From: an uncultured Kiritimatiellota bacterium
Lineage (GTDB): Bacteria; Verrucomicrobiota; Kiritimatiellia; RFP12; DVOR01
Direction: 5' to 3'
Assembly: GCA_944391055.1 (NCBI GenBank)
Contig: CALXSF010000006.1
Location: 62,001-126,000 of the forward strand
DNA length: 64,000 nt
Numbering within the stretch: the stretch's first letter is position 1; each line of letters opens with the position of its first letter. Below the pieces are notes generated by a model. It did not search any database. It worked only from the letters and a program-made list of their open reading frames with translations, and was not told the origin of the DNA. Position numbers and translations under genes: made by a program. Shown one piece after another: positions 28,513-37,182 of the stretch.

Positions 28513-29436
28513 TTACTTGGTCAGACGCTGGACGGCGAGGGCGATGTCTTGGGCGCGGCGGTCGCCGCCCTCGCGTTCGATGAGGAAGTTGCCGTCGTAG
28601 CCGAGGCGGCCGAGGGCGGCGACGAAGGCGCGCCCGCCGACCTTGCCCTCGCCCCACGGGGTCTCGGTGCCCCAGACGCCGGGCTTGGCGGCGGGGATGG
28701 CGTCCTTGACGTGGATCTGGCGGATCCAGGGCATGAGGGTGGCCAGGGCGGCGGTGGGGTCGCCTTTGCCGTAGAGGATCATGTTGGCGGGGTCGAAGTT
28801 GATGCCGACGCCGGGGACGTCCTCCATGAAGGCGGCGAGGTCCTCGGCGGTCTCCTGGCCGGATTCGAGGAGGAGGGTGACGCCGTTGCGGGCGCATTCG
28901 TCGCGCATCCACGTGACGCGCTCGACGAAGGTGGCGTAGGCCTTGGGGTCGCGCTCGTCGAGGAAGCCGGCGTGGAGGGTGAGGTAGGGCGCGCCGAGCT
29001 CCTTGGTCAGCTTGGCGGCGCGGCGGACGAGCTCGCGGTTGCGGGGCCATTCGGCGTCGGGGACGATGCCGCCGGTCTTGCGGATGGTCTCGAGCGTGGA
29101 GTAGTCTTCCTGCGGGAAGCCGATCATGGTGGACATGAGCACCCAGTCGCCCGAGGCGACGCGCCGCCTGACGAGGGCGAGGGCCTCCTGGCCTTCGGCG
29201 GCGCCGTGGCGTTCGTCGGGGGCGAGGAAGGGGCCGAGGGCGAGGTGGATGCCTTTGACGCCCATCGCCTTCATCCGCGCGTCGACCTGCGCGATGGGTT
29301 CCTGGAAGCTCCAGCTGCAGACGCCCACGCGGGCGATGGGGACGGTCTCGGGGCTTTGCCTGCCGCAGAGCGAGCAGCCTGTGAGCGCGGCGAGCGCGCC
29401 GGCGGCGGCGAGGGAGAGGAAGGTGCGGCGTCTCAT
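28513..29436 (-). CDS. Xylose-isomerase-like TIM-barrel lipoprotein
   Basis: 307 residues with a Tat/lipoprotein leader (R-R-R-T-F-L-S-L then L-T-G-C, Cys21). The fold is the sugar-phosphate isomerase/epimerase (AP_endonuc_2-like) barrel; metal ligands are visible as L-L-E-S near residue 188, I-N-F-D-P-A-N, H-V-K-D and the final I-E-R-E. Members near DUF1080 and Gfo/Idh genes include 3-keto-glycoside epimerases and lyases. Substrate unknown. Confidence 0.85.
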   Translation of the reverse strand: MRRRTFLSLAAAGALAALTGCSLCGRQSPETVPIARVGVCSWSFQEPIAQVDARMKAMGVKGIHLALGPFLAPDERHGAAEGQEALALVRRRVASGDWVLMSTMIGFPQEDYSTLETIRKTGGIVPDAEWPRNRELVRRAAKLTKELGAPYLTLHAGFLDERDPKAYATFVERVTWMRDECARNGVTLLLESGQETAEDLAAFMEDVPGVGINFDPANMILYGKGDPTAALATLMPWIRQIHVKDAIPAAKPGVWGTETPWGEGKVGGRAFVAALGRLGYDGNFLIEREGGDRRAQDIALAVQRLTK

Positions 29437-29445
29437 GGGGTCTCC

Positions 29446-30903
29446 TTACAGTTCGCGGATGAAGATGTTGCGCCATTCGACGGGGTCGCCGTGGCATTGG
29501 AGCTCGATCTGCCCGACGGGGAAGATGGGCTGGCGGCGATCCCAGTAGTTCTCGAGGGTCACGTTGTCGACCACGGTCTGGCCGTTGAGGCGGACGGTCA
29601 CCTTGTCGCCGACCATCTTGACGTAGAAGCGGTTCCAGTCGCCCACCTGGCGGTCGGCGATCGCGGTGGCCTTGGAGGGGTTCTTCTGGTTGTTGTAGAG
29701 GCCGCCGGAGCCGATGTGCCATTGGTTGTGGGCGTCCCAGATCTGCACTTGGGGGGCGCCGCGGAGGTAGAGGCCGGAGTCGCCGCGCTCGGTGAGGATG
29801 CGCCAGTCGGCCCAGAGCTCGAAGTCCTCGTAGTCCTTCTTCGTCGCCAGGGAGTAGCCGCCTTTGAGGCCGTCGAAGAAGAGGGCGCCGTTGCGGACGT
29901 GCCAGTGCGGGGGCACGAGGGCGTCGGCCTTGCGCTGCATCTCGGCGCGTTTCTCGGGGGTGGCGCGCTGGCGGACGATGGGGTTGTCGAAGCCGCCCTC
30001 GGTGGTGACGCCTTTCCAGTTGGCGGCGAGGTCCGCGGGGTTGCCGGCGAAGCAGGGGGCGAAGCCCTCGGGGGCGGCGGCGGGGGGGCAGGCCGCGCCC
30101 ATGACGGCGTCGTCGGGGAGTTCCTTGATGCGGATGTTGCGCCATTTGACGTTGTGGCCGTGCCCGAGCCAGCCGAGTTTGCCGCGGGTGTTGTGGAGCC
30201 CGGGGTGGGGGCGGTGGTCGGGGGTGTCGCCGTCGCCCTTGAAGGCCGCCATGTCGCCTTTCGTGACGAGGTGGCCGTTGAGGTAGACCTCCAGCTGCGT
30301 GCCGATGGCCTTGACCTCCATGAAGTTCCATTGGCCGGCCTTGCGGAGGTAGCTGCCGCCGGGCGCGCAGTCCTTGGCCTTGCCGGCGACCATCTTGCCC
30401 ACGTTGTCGCGGCGGCAGGGGAGGATGCCGTAGGCCGAGCCGGTGAACTGATAGGGGGCCAGCTTGTCCTTCTTCGCCTTTTCGTCGTAGTACCACGAGC
30501 CGCCGTCGTCGAGCAGCTGCACCTCGCACATGGCCTCGTAGGCGGCGTCGGCGTTGGGCTTGTTGATGCGCAGGCCGAGGCCGTTGTTGCCGTTGGGCGG
30601 CATCTTGAACTCGAAGCGGAGGATGAAGTTGCCGTATTCCTTGGCCGTCACGAGGTCGCCGCGCTGGCCCTTCGGCAATTTGCGGCCCGGGAAGCATTGC
30701 AGCACGCCGGGCTCCTTCGGGTCCACGCCATACATCGCCGTGGCGCCTTCCCAGCCGGTCAGGTCCTTGCCGTTGAAGAGGCTCACGAACCCTTCCTCGA
30801 CGGTCTCCGGGTAGGGCGCGGCCGTCAGTCCGCCGGCCAATGCCGCCATGCCGCACACGGCCACCGCCGCGCGCTTCCAAAACGAGACTCTGCTTGTGCT
30901 CAT
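29446..30903 (-). CDS. Two-domain DUF1080 (3-keto-disaccharide hydrolase-like) protein
   Basis: 485 residues from ATG 30903 with GGAAGGA 8 nt upstream. Signal peptide then two DUF1080 jelly-roll domains, each starting with a G-F-V-S-L-F-N-G-K-D-L-T-G-W-type or V-R-N-G-A-L-F-F-D strand and ending with W-R-N-I-x-I-K-E-L / W-R-N-I-F-I-R-E-L. DUF1080 is a concanavalin-like fold; some members hydrolyse 3-keto-glycosides. First gene of the seven-gene operon, with the promoter and a GC-rich inverted repeat upstream. Confidence 0.9.
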   Translation of the reverse strand: MSTSRVSFWKRAAVAVCGMAALAGGLTAAPYPETVEEGFVSLFNGKDLTGWEGATAMYGVDPKEPGVLQCFPGRKLPKGQRGDLVTAKEYGNFILRFEFKMPPNGNNGLGLRINKPNADAAYEAMCEVQLLDDGGSWYYDEKAKKDKLAPYQFTGSAYGILPCRRDNVGKMVAGKAKDCAPGGSYLRKAGQWNFMEVKAIGTQLEVYLNGHLVTKGDMAAFKGDGDTPDHRPHPGLHNTRGKLGWLGHGHNVKWRNIRIKELPDDAVMGAACPPAAAPEGFAPCFAGNPADLAANWKGVTTEGGFDNPIVRQRATPEKRAEMQRKADALVPPHWHVRNGALFFDGLKGGYSLATKKDYEDFELWADWRILTERGDSGLYLRGAPQVQIWDAHNQWHIGSGGLYNNQKNPSKATAIADRQVGDWNRFYVKMVGDKVTVRLNGQTVVDNVTLENYWDRRQPIFPVGQIELQCHGDPVEWRNIFIREL

Positions 30904-31109: not shown

Positions 31110-32744
<1,635 letters not shown>

Positions 32745-32774: not shown

Positions 32775-33071
32775 TTAGACCAGGATGCCGAGGAGGTCCT
32801 CGGAGCGGACGATCTGGTAGACCTCGTCGTCCAGCTTGATCTCGGTGCCGCCGTACTTCGGCAGCAGCACGGTGTCGCCGGGCTTGACGTCGAAGGGCAC
32901 TTCCTTGCCGTCCTTGTCGCGCTTGACGCCGACGGCGATGACGGTGCCTTCCATCGGCTTTTCCTTGGCGGTGTCGGGGATGATGATGCCGCCGCGGGTG
33001 ACTTCCTTCTCTTCCTTGGGCAGGACGAGGACGCGGTCGCCCAACGGGCGGATTGCGGGTTTCTTGGACAT
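32775..33071 (-). CDS. groS: Co-chaperonin GroES
   Basis: 98 residues: [10 protein letters not shown] near the N-terminus, the mobile-loop region G-G-I-I-I-P-D, and a C-terminal [11 protein letters not shown]. Caps the GroEL ring. AAAGGAAGAG precedes the ATG. Confidence 0.97.
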
Positions 33072-33137: not shown

Positions 33138-35024
<1,887 letters not shown>

Positions 35025-35073
35025 CGGTTCTTTCCTTTCGTCGCGGGGTCACCGCGTGGCTTACGCCTCCTTT

Positions 35074-35090
35074 TGCAACCGCCGTGCCAA
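35074..35090 (-). promoter_or_regulatory. Sigma-54-type promoter of dnaK
   Basis: Minus strand TTGGCACGGCGGTTGCA: -24 GG and -12 GC are separated by exactly 10 nt and the flanking bases match the RpoN consensus TGGCACG-N4-TTGCA. Transcription would start near 35062, about 38 nt before the ATG. Confidence 0.55.
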
Positions 35091-35132
35091 TTCGCCGGCG
35101 AGGCCCGAAAGCCCCCCTTGGCGCCCCGCCGC

Positions 35133-35182
35133 GTGCCACGACTGTGCCAAAACCGTGCCATGCCGCTGGCACGCCCGTGCCA
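35133..35182. promoter_or_regulatory. Phased TGGCAC/GTGCCA operator array upstream of dnaK
   Basis: Five copies of gtgcca or its complement begin at 35133, 35144, 35155, 35167 (inverted) and 35177, spaced 11, 11, 12 and 10 bp, i.e. one per helical turn. They lie 45-110 bp upstream of the sigma-54-type element, the usual range of an enhancer or operator. Confidence 0.5.
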
Positions 35183-35199
35183 GGGCGCCGCGCAAACGG

Positions 35200-35225
35200 C
35201 GCGGCCCCGCGGGGGCGGGGCCGCG
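35200..35225 (-). terminator. Hairpin after speA
   Basis: Stem cgcggccccgc / gcggggccgcg, loop gggg, 22-47 nt past the speA stop. No T-run follows, so termination here is uncertain. Confidence 0.4.
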
Positions 35226-35247
35226 CGGATCGGGGCCGAGGGGCGCC

Positions 35248-37182
35248 TCAGAGCTCGAAGTAGGTGTAGCCGCGCAGGCCGTTGGCGTAGGCCGAGAGGA
35301 TGCGCCGGCGCTCGGCGGGCGTGATGCGGCGGCTCTTGACGGCGGCGTCGGTGAGGCGGCGGAAACGCGAGACCAGGTCGGCGGTGTTGTATTCCACGTA
35401 GGAGAGCACCTCCTCCACGGTGTCGCCCTCGACCTCGTCGGGGAAGTCGATGTCCCCGTCCTCGTCCAATTTGACGGAGACGATGTTGGTGTCGCCGAAA
35501 AGGTTGTGCAGATCCCCCAAGGTCTCTTGGTAGGCGCCGACGAGGAACGCGCCGAGGATGTAGTCCTCGCCTTCCTTCACCGGGTGCAGGGGCAGGGCGC
35601 GCTTGACGTCGTGCAGGTCGATGAACTTGTCGATCTGCCCGTCGCAGTCGCACGTGATGTCGGAGAGGTGGGCGCTGCGGGTGGGCTTCTCGCAGAGGCG
35701 GGCGATGGGCATGATCGGGAAGAGCTGGTCGATGGCCCAGGCGTCCGGCAGGGACTGGAAGACGGAGAAGTTGCAGTAATAGATGTCGGCCATCGCCTCG
35801 TCGAGCCCCAAGAGATCCTCGGGGACGTACTTCAGCTTGGGCACCTCGGCGCGGATGCGCGTGAGGATCGACCAGAAGACGCGGTCGGCGGCCGCGTGCT
35901 GGCGGAGCGACACCTGCCCCTGCTTGAAGGCCTTCTGGATCTCCTCGCGGTAATACAGGGCGTCGTTGAAGTATTCCGGCAGGTTCTTGGTGCGCAGGTT
36001 TTTGGCCACGTCCAGGAGGTTGGCGATGCAGTCGGGCAGGTGCGCGTCCTCGAGCGCGGGGTCGTGCGCGGGGGCCTCCACCTCGAAGCTCGCCGTCCCC
36101 AGCACATCCACCAACAGCACCGAATAGTAACCGATGAGGGCGCGGCCGGACTCGCTGATGATGGTGGGGTGGGGGACGCTTGCGTGGTCGCAGGAAAGCA
36201 TGATGCCCTCCACCACGTCGGCGCAATACTCGGCGATGTCGTAGTTGGCGCTGCTCTCGAAGTTCGTGTGGCTGCCGTCGTAATCGATGGCCAGGCCGCC
36301 GCCGATGTCGAAGATGCCCATCGGCGCGCCCTCCTTGACCAGCCCCACGTAGAAGCGCGAGGCCTCCTTCACCGTGTCGCGGATCTCGCGGATGTTCGGC
36401 ACCTGCGAGCCCAGGTGATAATGCAGCATCTCCAGGCAATCCAGCTTACCCTCCGCGCGCAGACGGTCCACCACCGCGATCATCTGCCCCGCCGTCAGCC
36501 CGAAGACGGAACGGTCGCCGCCGCTCTCGCTCCACTTGCCCCCCACCTTGCTGCTCAGCTTCACGCGGATGCCGATCCGCGGCTTCACCTTCAGCTCCTC
36601 GGCCACCGCCAGGATGATGTCCAGCTCCTCGGGGTTCTCCAGCACCAGCATCGTGCGCAGGCCCATCTTCAGCGACCCCAAGGCCAGGCGCACGAACTCC
36701 TCGTCCTTGTAGCCGTTGCAGACGATGTAGGCCTCCGGGTCCTGCATGTAGGCCAAGGCCGCGATGAGCTCGGCCTTCGAGCCCGCCTCCAGGCCGTGGT
36801 GCCACGGGCGCCCATAGGTCACCACATCCTGCACCGCCTGCTGCTGCTGGTTCACCTTGATGGGATAGACGCCCCGGTAGACGCCCTTGTAGCCATAATC
36901 CTTGATGGCCTTGGCGAAGGCCTCGTTGATCACCCGGATCCGGTCGGCCAGGATGTCGCTGAAGCGCAGCAGCACCGGCAGGCTCATGCCGCGCTCCCGC
37001 AGCTCCCGCACGATCGTCGCGAAGGGCACGTCCACCTTCTTGCCCTGGCGCGACAGCCTCACCGTGGCCAACCCCTCCGGCGAGACCCCGAAATAGTCCC
37101 GCCCCCAGGCGTCCACGCCATAAAGCTCCGCGCTTTTCACCGCGTTCCAACCGCTCAACGCATCCGTCGCGCCCTTGGCCAT
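35248..37182 (-). CDS. speA: Biosynthetic arginine decarboxylase
   Basis: 644 residues, fold III PLP enzyme. PLP lysine is in Y-P-I-K-V-N-Q-Q-Q (K109); I-G-G-G-L-A-I-D-Y-D-G binds the phosphate of PLP. It makes agmatine, the first step from arginine to putrescine, and so drains the product of argJ-argB-argD. No agmatinase (speB) gene is in view. GGAGAG precedes the ATG; an extended -10 lies at 37232-37240. Confidence 0.95.
   Translation of the reverse strand: MAKGATDALSGWNAVKSAELYGVDAWGRDYFGVSPEGLATVRLSRQGKKVDVPFATIVRELRERGMSLPVLLRFSDILADRIRVINEAFAKAIKDYGYKGVYRGVYPIKVNQQQQAVQDVVTYGRPWHHGLEAGSKAELIAALAYMQDPEAYIVCNGYKDEEFVRLALGSLKMGLRTMLVLENPEELDIILAVAEELKVKPRIGIRVKLSSKVGGKWSESGGDRSVFGLTAGQMIAVVDRLRAEGKLDCLEMLHYHLGSQVPNIREIRDTVKEASRFYVGLVKEGAPMGIFDIGGGLAIDYDGSHTNFESSANYDIAEYCADVVEGIMLSCDHASVPHPTIISESGRALIGYYSVLLVDVLGTASFEVEAPAHDPALEDAHLPDCIANLLDVAKNLRTKNLPEYFNDALYYREEIQKAFKQGQVSLRQHAAADRVFWSILTRIRAEVPKLKYVPEDLLGLDEAMADIYYCNFSVFQSLPDAWAIDQLFPIMPIARLCEKPTRSAHLSDITCDCDGQIDKFIDLHDVKRALPLHPVKEGEDYILGAFLVGAYQETLGDLHNLFGDTNIVSVKLDEDGDIDFPDEVEGDTVEEVLSYVEYNTADLVSRFRRLTDAAVKSRRITPAERRRILSAYANGLRGYTYFEL

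Follow-up and report, generated by a model that had tools for sequence, protein, structure and literature searches.

The window, by which we mean the whole 64-kb stretch of DNA analysed here, comes from a gut bacterium of the Kiritimatiellae and carries on its minus strand the chaperone genes dnaK (Hsp70), groS (Cpn10, GroES) and groL (Cpn60, GroEL), with speA on the upstream side of dnaK (Table 1). The placement of groS downstream of dnaK is seen in 13/13 loci of the same genus and in several other genera. The start codon of dnaK is the ATG at 35024 (minus strand), and 50 bp before the dnaK-groS-groL operon the sequence TTGGCACGGCGGTTGCA includes, at 35089-35074, a full match to the sigma-54 promoter consensus TGGCACGN4TTGC, reading TGGCAC-GGCGG-TTGC(A). 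This is the only match in the window, and it confirms, on the minus strand, the perfect GG-N10-GC element proposed in a preliminary description of this DNA.

With the GG of the element at -25/-24, transcription is predicted to start at about 35063, which gives a 39-nt leader. The stem-loop close to the 5' end predicted for the mRNA is weak when considered alone (z -1.3); stem-loops located at the predicted +1 or immediately 3' of it recur in the dnaK leaders of relatives (mean z -1.57, n=41), with sequences that differ between genera. These leader structures support the predicted transcription start, and may serve to protect the 5' end of the mRNA.

Further upstream, about 45-95 bp from the dnaK -24 box, lies an array of five TGGCAC/GTGCCA half-sites starting at 35133(-), 35144(-), 35155(-), 35167(+) and 35177(-). 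The steps of 11, 11, 12 and 10 bp agree with the spacing of 10-12 bp initially described, and the further GG-N10-GC pairs pointed out at the same time do occur, arising arithmetically at the copies spaced 11 bp apart (two pairs). Positions 35167-35182 form a perfect palindrome, TGGCAC-N4-GTGCCA, and the -24 box is in itself a sixth TGGCAC copy, at 35084. Against a background of only 17 scattered copies elsewhere in the window, five copies within 50 bp are far beyond chance; no second cluster of at least three copies was found in the 64 kb. Strong GC-rich inverted repeats at 35190-35230, between the end of speA and the array, are possibly the speA terminator.

Table 1. Features of the dnaK-groS-groL locus in the window.
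Feature	Position	Strand	Basis or remark
groL (Cpn60, GroEL)	31110..32744	minus	Pfam PF00118
groS (Cpn10, GroES)	32775..33071	minus	Pfam PF00166
dnaK (Hsp70)	33138..35024	minus	Pfam PF00012, E 4e-265
Stem-loop near predicted dnaK mRNA 5' end	35042..35056	minus	GCGG-type stem, just 5' of Shine-Dalgarno
Sigma-54 -24/-12 element TGGCACGGCGGTTGCA of dnaK-groS-groL	35074..35089	minus	Perfect consensus TGGCACGN4TTGC
Upstream activating array, five TGGCAC/GTGCCA half-sites	35133..35182	minus	Predicted, by sequence
speA	35248-37182	minus	

The Promoter Element Across the Genome and the Phylum

The assembly from which the window derives comprises 2.15 Mb in 27 contigs and contains four exact matches to TGGCACGN4TTGC: those before dnaK, clpB and a glutamine synthetase gene, and one inside coding sequence. 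Of the other exact-match promoters, only that of clpB (GTGCCAACGTGGCACGGTGTGCCACGCGAATGGCAG) also carries a TGGCAC array, and among the 94 genes of the genome that were scored the combination of a strong element with an array is confined to dnaK and clpB. The gene divergent from clpB has the intergenic array in common with it, without a strong element of its own. Other matches of the array pattern in the genome (C6:13444 and C17:17838) were judged to be due to chance. At C1:175335-175700 the sigma-54 glutamine synthetase gene is divergent from a glutamate synthase gene, and both carry sigma-54 elements, that of the glutamate synthase gene with one mismatch, without a TGGCAC array.

For the survey of relatives, an element was counted as conserved at a score of at least 24 of 29, with dinucleotide shuffles as the control. 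By this measure dnaK is preceded by the element in 41/42 genomes of the order and clpB in 45/47, against 3-4% in the shuffles (about 4% for dnaK). Outside the genus it precedes dnaK in 57/66 loci of named Verrucomicrobiota, and in none of three outgroups (Zixibacteria, Desulfobacterales, Latescibacterota). The named genomes nearest to this one in the scan are Kiritimatiellae MAGs with DnaK identities of 94% and 90%, one of them from roe deer cecum. Since many of the genomes are incomplete drafts, the absence of a gene from a single genome carries little weight.

A search for HrcA that was positive in 7/14 control genomes found none in the order (0/59 genomes), and control through HrcA/CIRCE is ruled out for the order. 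In the aligned dnaK leaders no sigma-32 promoter block was noticed. A further possibility is that the sigma-54 element is incidental or minor, with dnaK transcribed mainly from an unrecognised promoter of the sigma-70 or sigma-32 type. We regard this as highly improbable, as the element is conserved throughout the order before both dnaK and clpB and phylum-wide before dnaK, is besides that of clpB the only strong site among the 94 genes, and is followed by leaders that tend to begin with a stem-loop at the predicted +1. Sigma-54 control, as first proposed from the locus itself, is instead strongly supported: rpoN is present in the genome (PF04552 match, E 4e-43), the order lacks HrcA, the element is conserved in relatives and clpB has the same element.

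Evolution of the Array

A more complicated picture is evident for the array. Within the genus, the regions upstream of dnaK and clpB (n=28) contain 89 copies of TGGCAC, where 4.2 are expected. In five other families the enriched words are TGTCACA (35 observed vs 1.2 expected), TGTCGCA (31 vs 1.4) and TGTCCCA (21 vs 1.0), which can be summed up as a half-site TGTCNCA that contains no -24 box. The geometry of the pairs differs as well: the other families often pair their half-sites as inverted repeats, GNGACA-N3-TGTCNC (19 cases against an expectation of about none), whereas the genus has mainly 11-bp direct repeats together with TGGCAC-N3-GTGCCA. Both kinds of half-site keep to the same region, for the most part 45-120 bp ahead of the -24 box, in both orientations and with variable spacing. 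The array is thus kept in relatives as a family of half-sites, but its arrangement changes between species and its sequence between families. In the distant order Limisphaerales, dnaK loci carry TGTGCCA/TGGCACA half-sites like those of the window's genus (20 vs 0.6 expected), which suggests an operator that is either convergent or retained.

This evolution speaks against an idea raised in the preliminary description, in which each TGGCAC is half of a -24 box and the array is a series of RNA-polymerase decoys. Such a reading draws on the two pairs spaced 11 bp apart that form GG-N10-GC, and we consider it extremely unlikely: the equivalent arrays of five other families consist of TGTCNCA, the half-sites occur in both orientations and at variable spacings, and the sigma-54 glutamine synthetase promoters of the same genomes have no array. 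Because TGTCNCA is not a -24 box, the decoy model falls, and the likeness of TGGCAC to a sigma-54 site appears to have arisen incidentally as the operator drifted.

A second alternative is that the array is the operator of a chaperone repressor, analogous to HrcA/CIRCE, placed over a sigma-54 promoter that is driven by another site. Inverted repeats are also typical of repressors, and the absence of HrcA leaves room for a different one; the array, however, lies mainly 45-120 bp above the -24 box, the usual place of a sigma-54 enhancer and too far for a direct block of polymerase, and sigma-54 promoters require an enhancer, for which no other conserved site was seen. We therefore hold a repressor to be very unlikely. 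The array is best read as a predicted activator-binding site and not as polymerase decoys, and a sigma-54 chaperone promoter with such an array is apparently a feature of most of the Verrucomicrobiota.

Candidate Activators

Three proteins with a clear sigma-54 activation domain were found in the genome as candidate enhancer-binding activators, with the architectures GAF-AAA-Fis, FHA-AAA-Fis and REC-AAA-Fis. We consider it probable that dnaK-groS-groL is transcribed via sigma-54 and that the array is the enhancer of the last of these, an NtrC-family response regulator encoded on contig C7 (about 29130-30482; REC PF00072, sigma-54 AAA+ PF00158, Fis HTH PF02954). That the promoter is of the sigma-54 type but the array is bound by another activator, such as the NifA-like GAF protein, the FHA protein or a further protein, is rather unlikely, even though all three activators exist in the genome and most genomes are incomplete drafts.

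The GAF activator was not found in five genomes of the same genus (G002, G004, G010, G012 and G016), of which G012 keeps the clpB array and the other four the dnaK array. It lies within 9 kb of a glutamine synthetase gene in four genomes and tracks the sigma-54 type of glutamine synthetase in the genus, where a sigma-54 element without an array is present in 8/8 close copies of that gene (87-100% identical) and in none of the more distant ones. As it is missing where arrays persist, and its recognition helix is constant while the half-site changes, we rejected the GAF protein as the activator of the array.

The FHA activator (C17:899-2206) was rejected likewise. In 15/15 same-genus copies the GAFTGA loop and a second loop are lost, while the FHA domain and an unchanged HTH are retained; orthologues in other families keep GAFTGA (or GSFTGA/GSFTSA). 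The protein is also missing from the genera g3, g11 and g12, which retain the dnaK element, and its recognition helix does not follow the change in half-site. In the genus it looks like an activator that has turned into something else. Palindromes of the TGGCACAC type occur at C16:43938 and C17:616 next to two near-identical transposase-like genes and are probably a mobile-element feature outside the regulon; the idea that the FHA activator regulates its own gene via the C17:616 palindrome was rejected because the same palindrome recurs beside the transposase-like gene at C16:43938.

The response regulator, which has the loop GAYTGA in the window's genome and GAFTGA in same-genus relatives, is present in all genomes of the genus but one (a 75%-complete assembly) and in 36/38 genomes from the rest of the order; no other intact activator was found in G002 and G004. 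Its gene belongs to an operon, in which it comes after the gene of a soluble PAS histidine kinase and before one (C7:30482-31192) encoding a CXXCXGXG-repeat protein with several DnaJ-type zinc-finger motifs (DnaJ central domain, E 7.5e-13), which likely has a signal peptide and is apparently exported. In five genera of family f3 the zinc-finger gene is likewise a neighbour of the regulator gene. Several observations count against the assignment: G054 (87% complete) has the dnaK and clpB elements and no match to the regulator, the geometry of the half-site pairs differs between the genus and the other families, the zinc-finger gene is not adjacent to the regulator in every family, and the regulator's own operon has no array in the genus.

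The recognition helix of the regulator reads G-I-[SN]-R-R-T in 30/30 proteins read from other families and G-I-P-L-R-T in 15/16 proteins of the genus, the exception being G013 with G-I-S-V-R-T. The change from SRRT to PLRT occurs where the half-site goes from TGTCNCA to TGGCAC, and the helices of the GAF and FHA proteins show no change in step between the same groups. The sole activator with a changed DNA-reading helix is thus the one proposed to read the changed sites. As the genus forms one clade in the DnaK tree, this co-variation counts as a single event on one branch and not as a statistical test. G013 does not branch first in that tree, and we do not claim its helix as an evolutionary intermediate.

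A Proposed Chaperone Regulon and Its Relation to Known Systems

From the promoter, the array and the distribution of the regulator we infer a two-component, sigma-54-driven chaperone regulon. Sigma-54 RNA polymerase would transcribe dnaK-groS-groL, with the TGGCAC array as the enhancer (UAS) for the NtrC-family response regulator encoded elsewhere in the genome. Under proteotoxic stress the histidine kinase would phosphorylate the response regulator, whose dimers would assemble at the array; the closed complex at dnaK and clpB would then be opened by the AAA+ ring. Binding of the array by this regulator, activation of the regulator by phosphorylation and heat or misfolded protein as the signal are predictions from the genomic data, as is a putative role of the zinc-finger protein in the regulon. 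A wider reading, which we advance only tentatively and think somewhat doubtful as a whole, is that the histidine kinase, the sigma-54 response regulator and a DnaJ-zinc-finger protein reporting the folding state would together control dnaK-groSL and clpB, as a phylum-wide replacement of sigma-32 and HrcA, and that the joint switch of operator and recognition helix can be traced within one family.

Textbook accounts of heat-shock control rest on sigma-32 or HrcA/CIRCE. In Chlamydia, a member of the same superphylum, a heat-shock operon is likewise among the sigma-54 targets of a two-component activator; Chlamydia, however, has HrcA/CIRCE and a sigma-66 promoter, whereas here there is no HrcA and the sigma-54 element is the only conserved promoter seen. 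The groESL3 operon of Bradyrhizobium is a chaperonin operon under NifA/sigma-54 and resembles the present case in its sigma-54 promoter and upstream enhancer, but it is one of several groESL copies and is linked to nitrogen fixation, and is not the stress operon. HsfA of Myxococcus xanthus is NtrC-like. In this species the heat-shock gene lonD is activated by the HsfA/HsfB pair, a two-component histidine-aspartate system (Ueki and Inouye 2002, cited in PMC9548883); the target is a protease gene and not the core chaperones. A 2025 survey predicts sigma-54 promoters before groEL, groES, grpE, dnaJ, dnaK and ATP-dependent protease genes in Planctomycetota and Bacteroidota; the enrichment it reports concerns these other phyla, and its passages on this chaperone cluster do not list the Verrucomicrobiota and assign neither an operator array nor an activator (PMC12316311).

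The novelty is limited by these related predictions for Planctomycetota and Bacteroidota; what is new here is that a further phylum is concerned, that its order represented here lacks HrcA, that a candidate regulator is named and that the operator is mapped. A literature search that covered little of the subscription journals returned no report of sigma-54 heat-shock control in the Verrucomicrobiota, which is weak evidence of novelty. The hypothesis is directly testable, now that a regulator has been proposed by name together with its operators and the partner encoded in its operon.

Where HrcA is missing and the core chaperones depend on a sigma factor that needs an activator, the logic of control would be different: promoters would not leak, activation would be driven by ATP, and sensing would fall to a specific kinase. 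The operator and the recognition helix, having changed as a pair, provide a natural experiment in the co-evolution of a regulator and its sites at essential genes.
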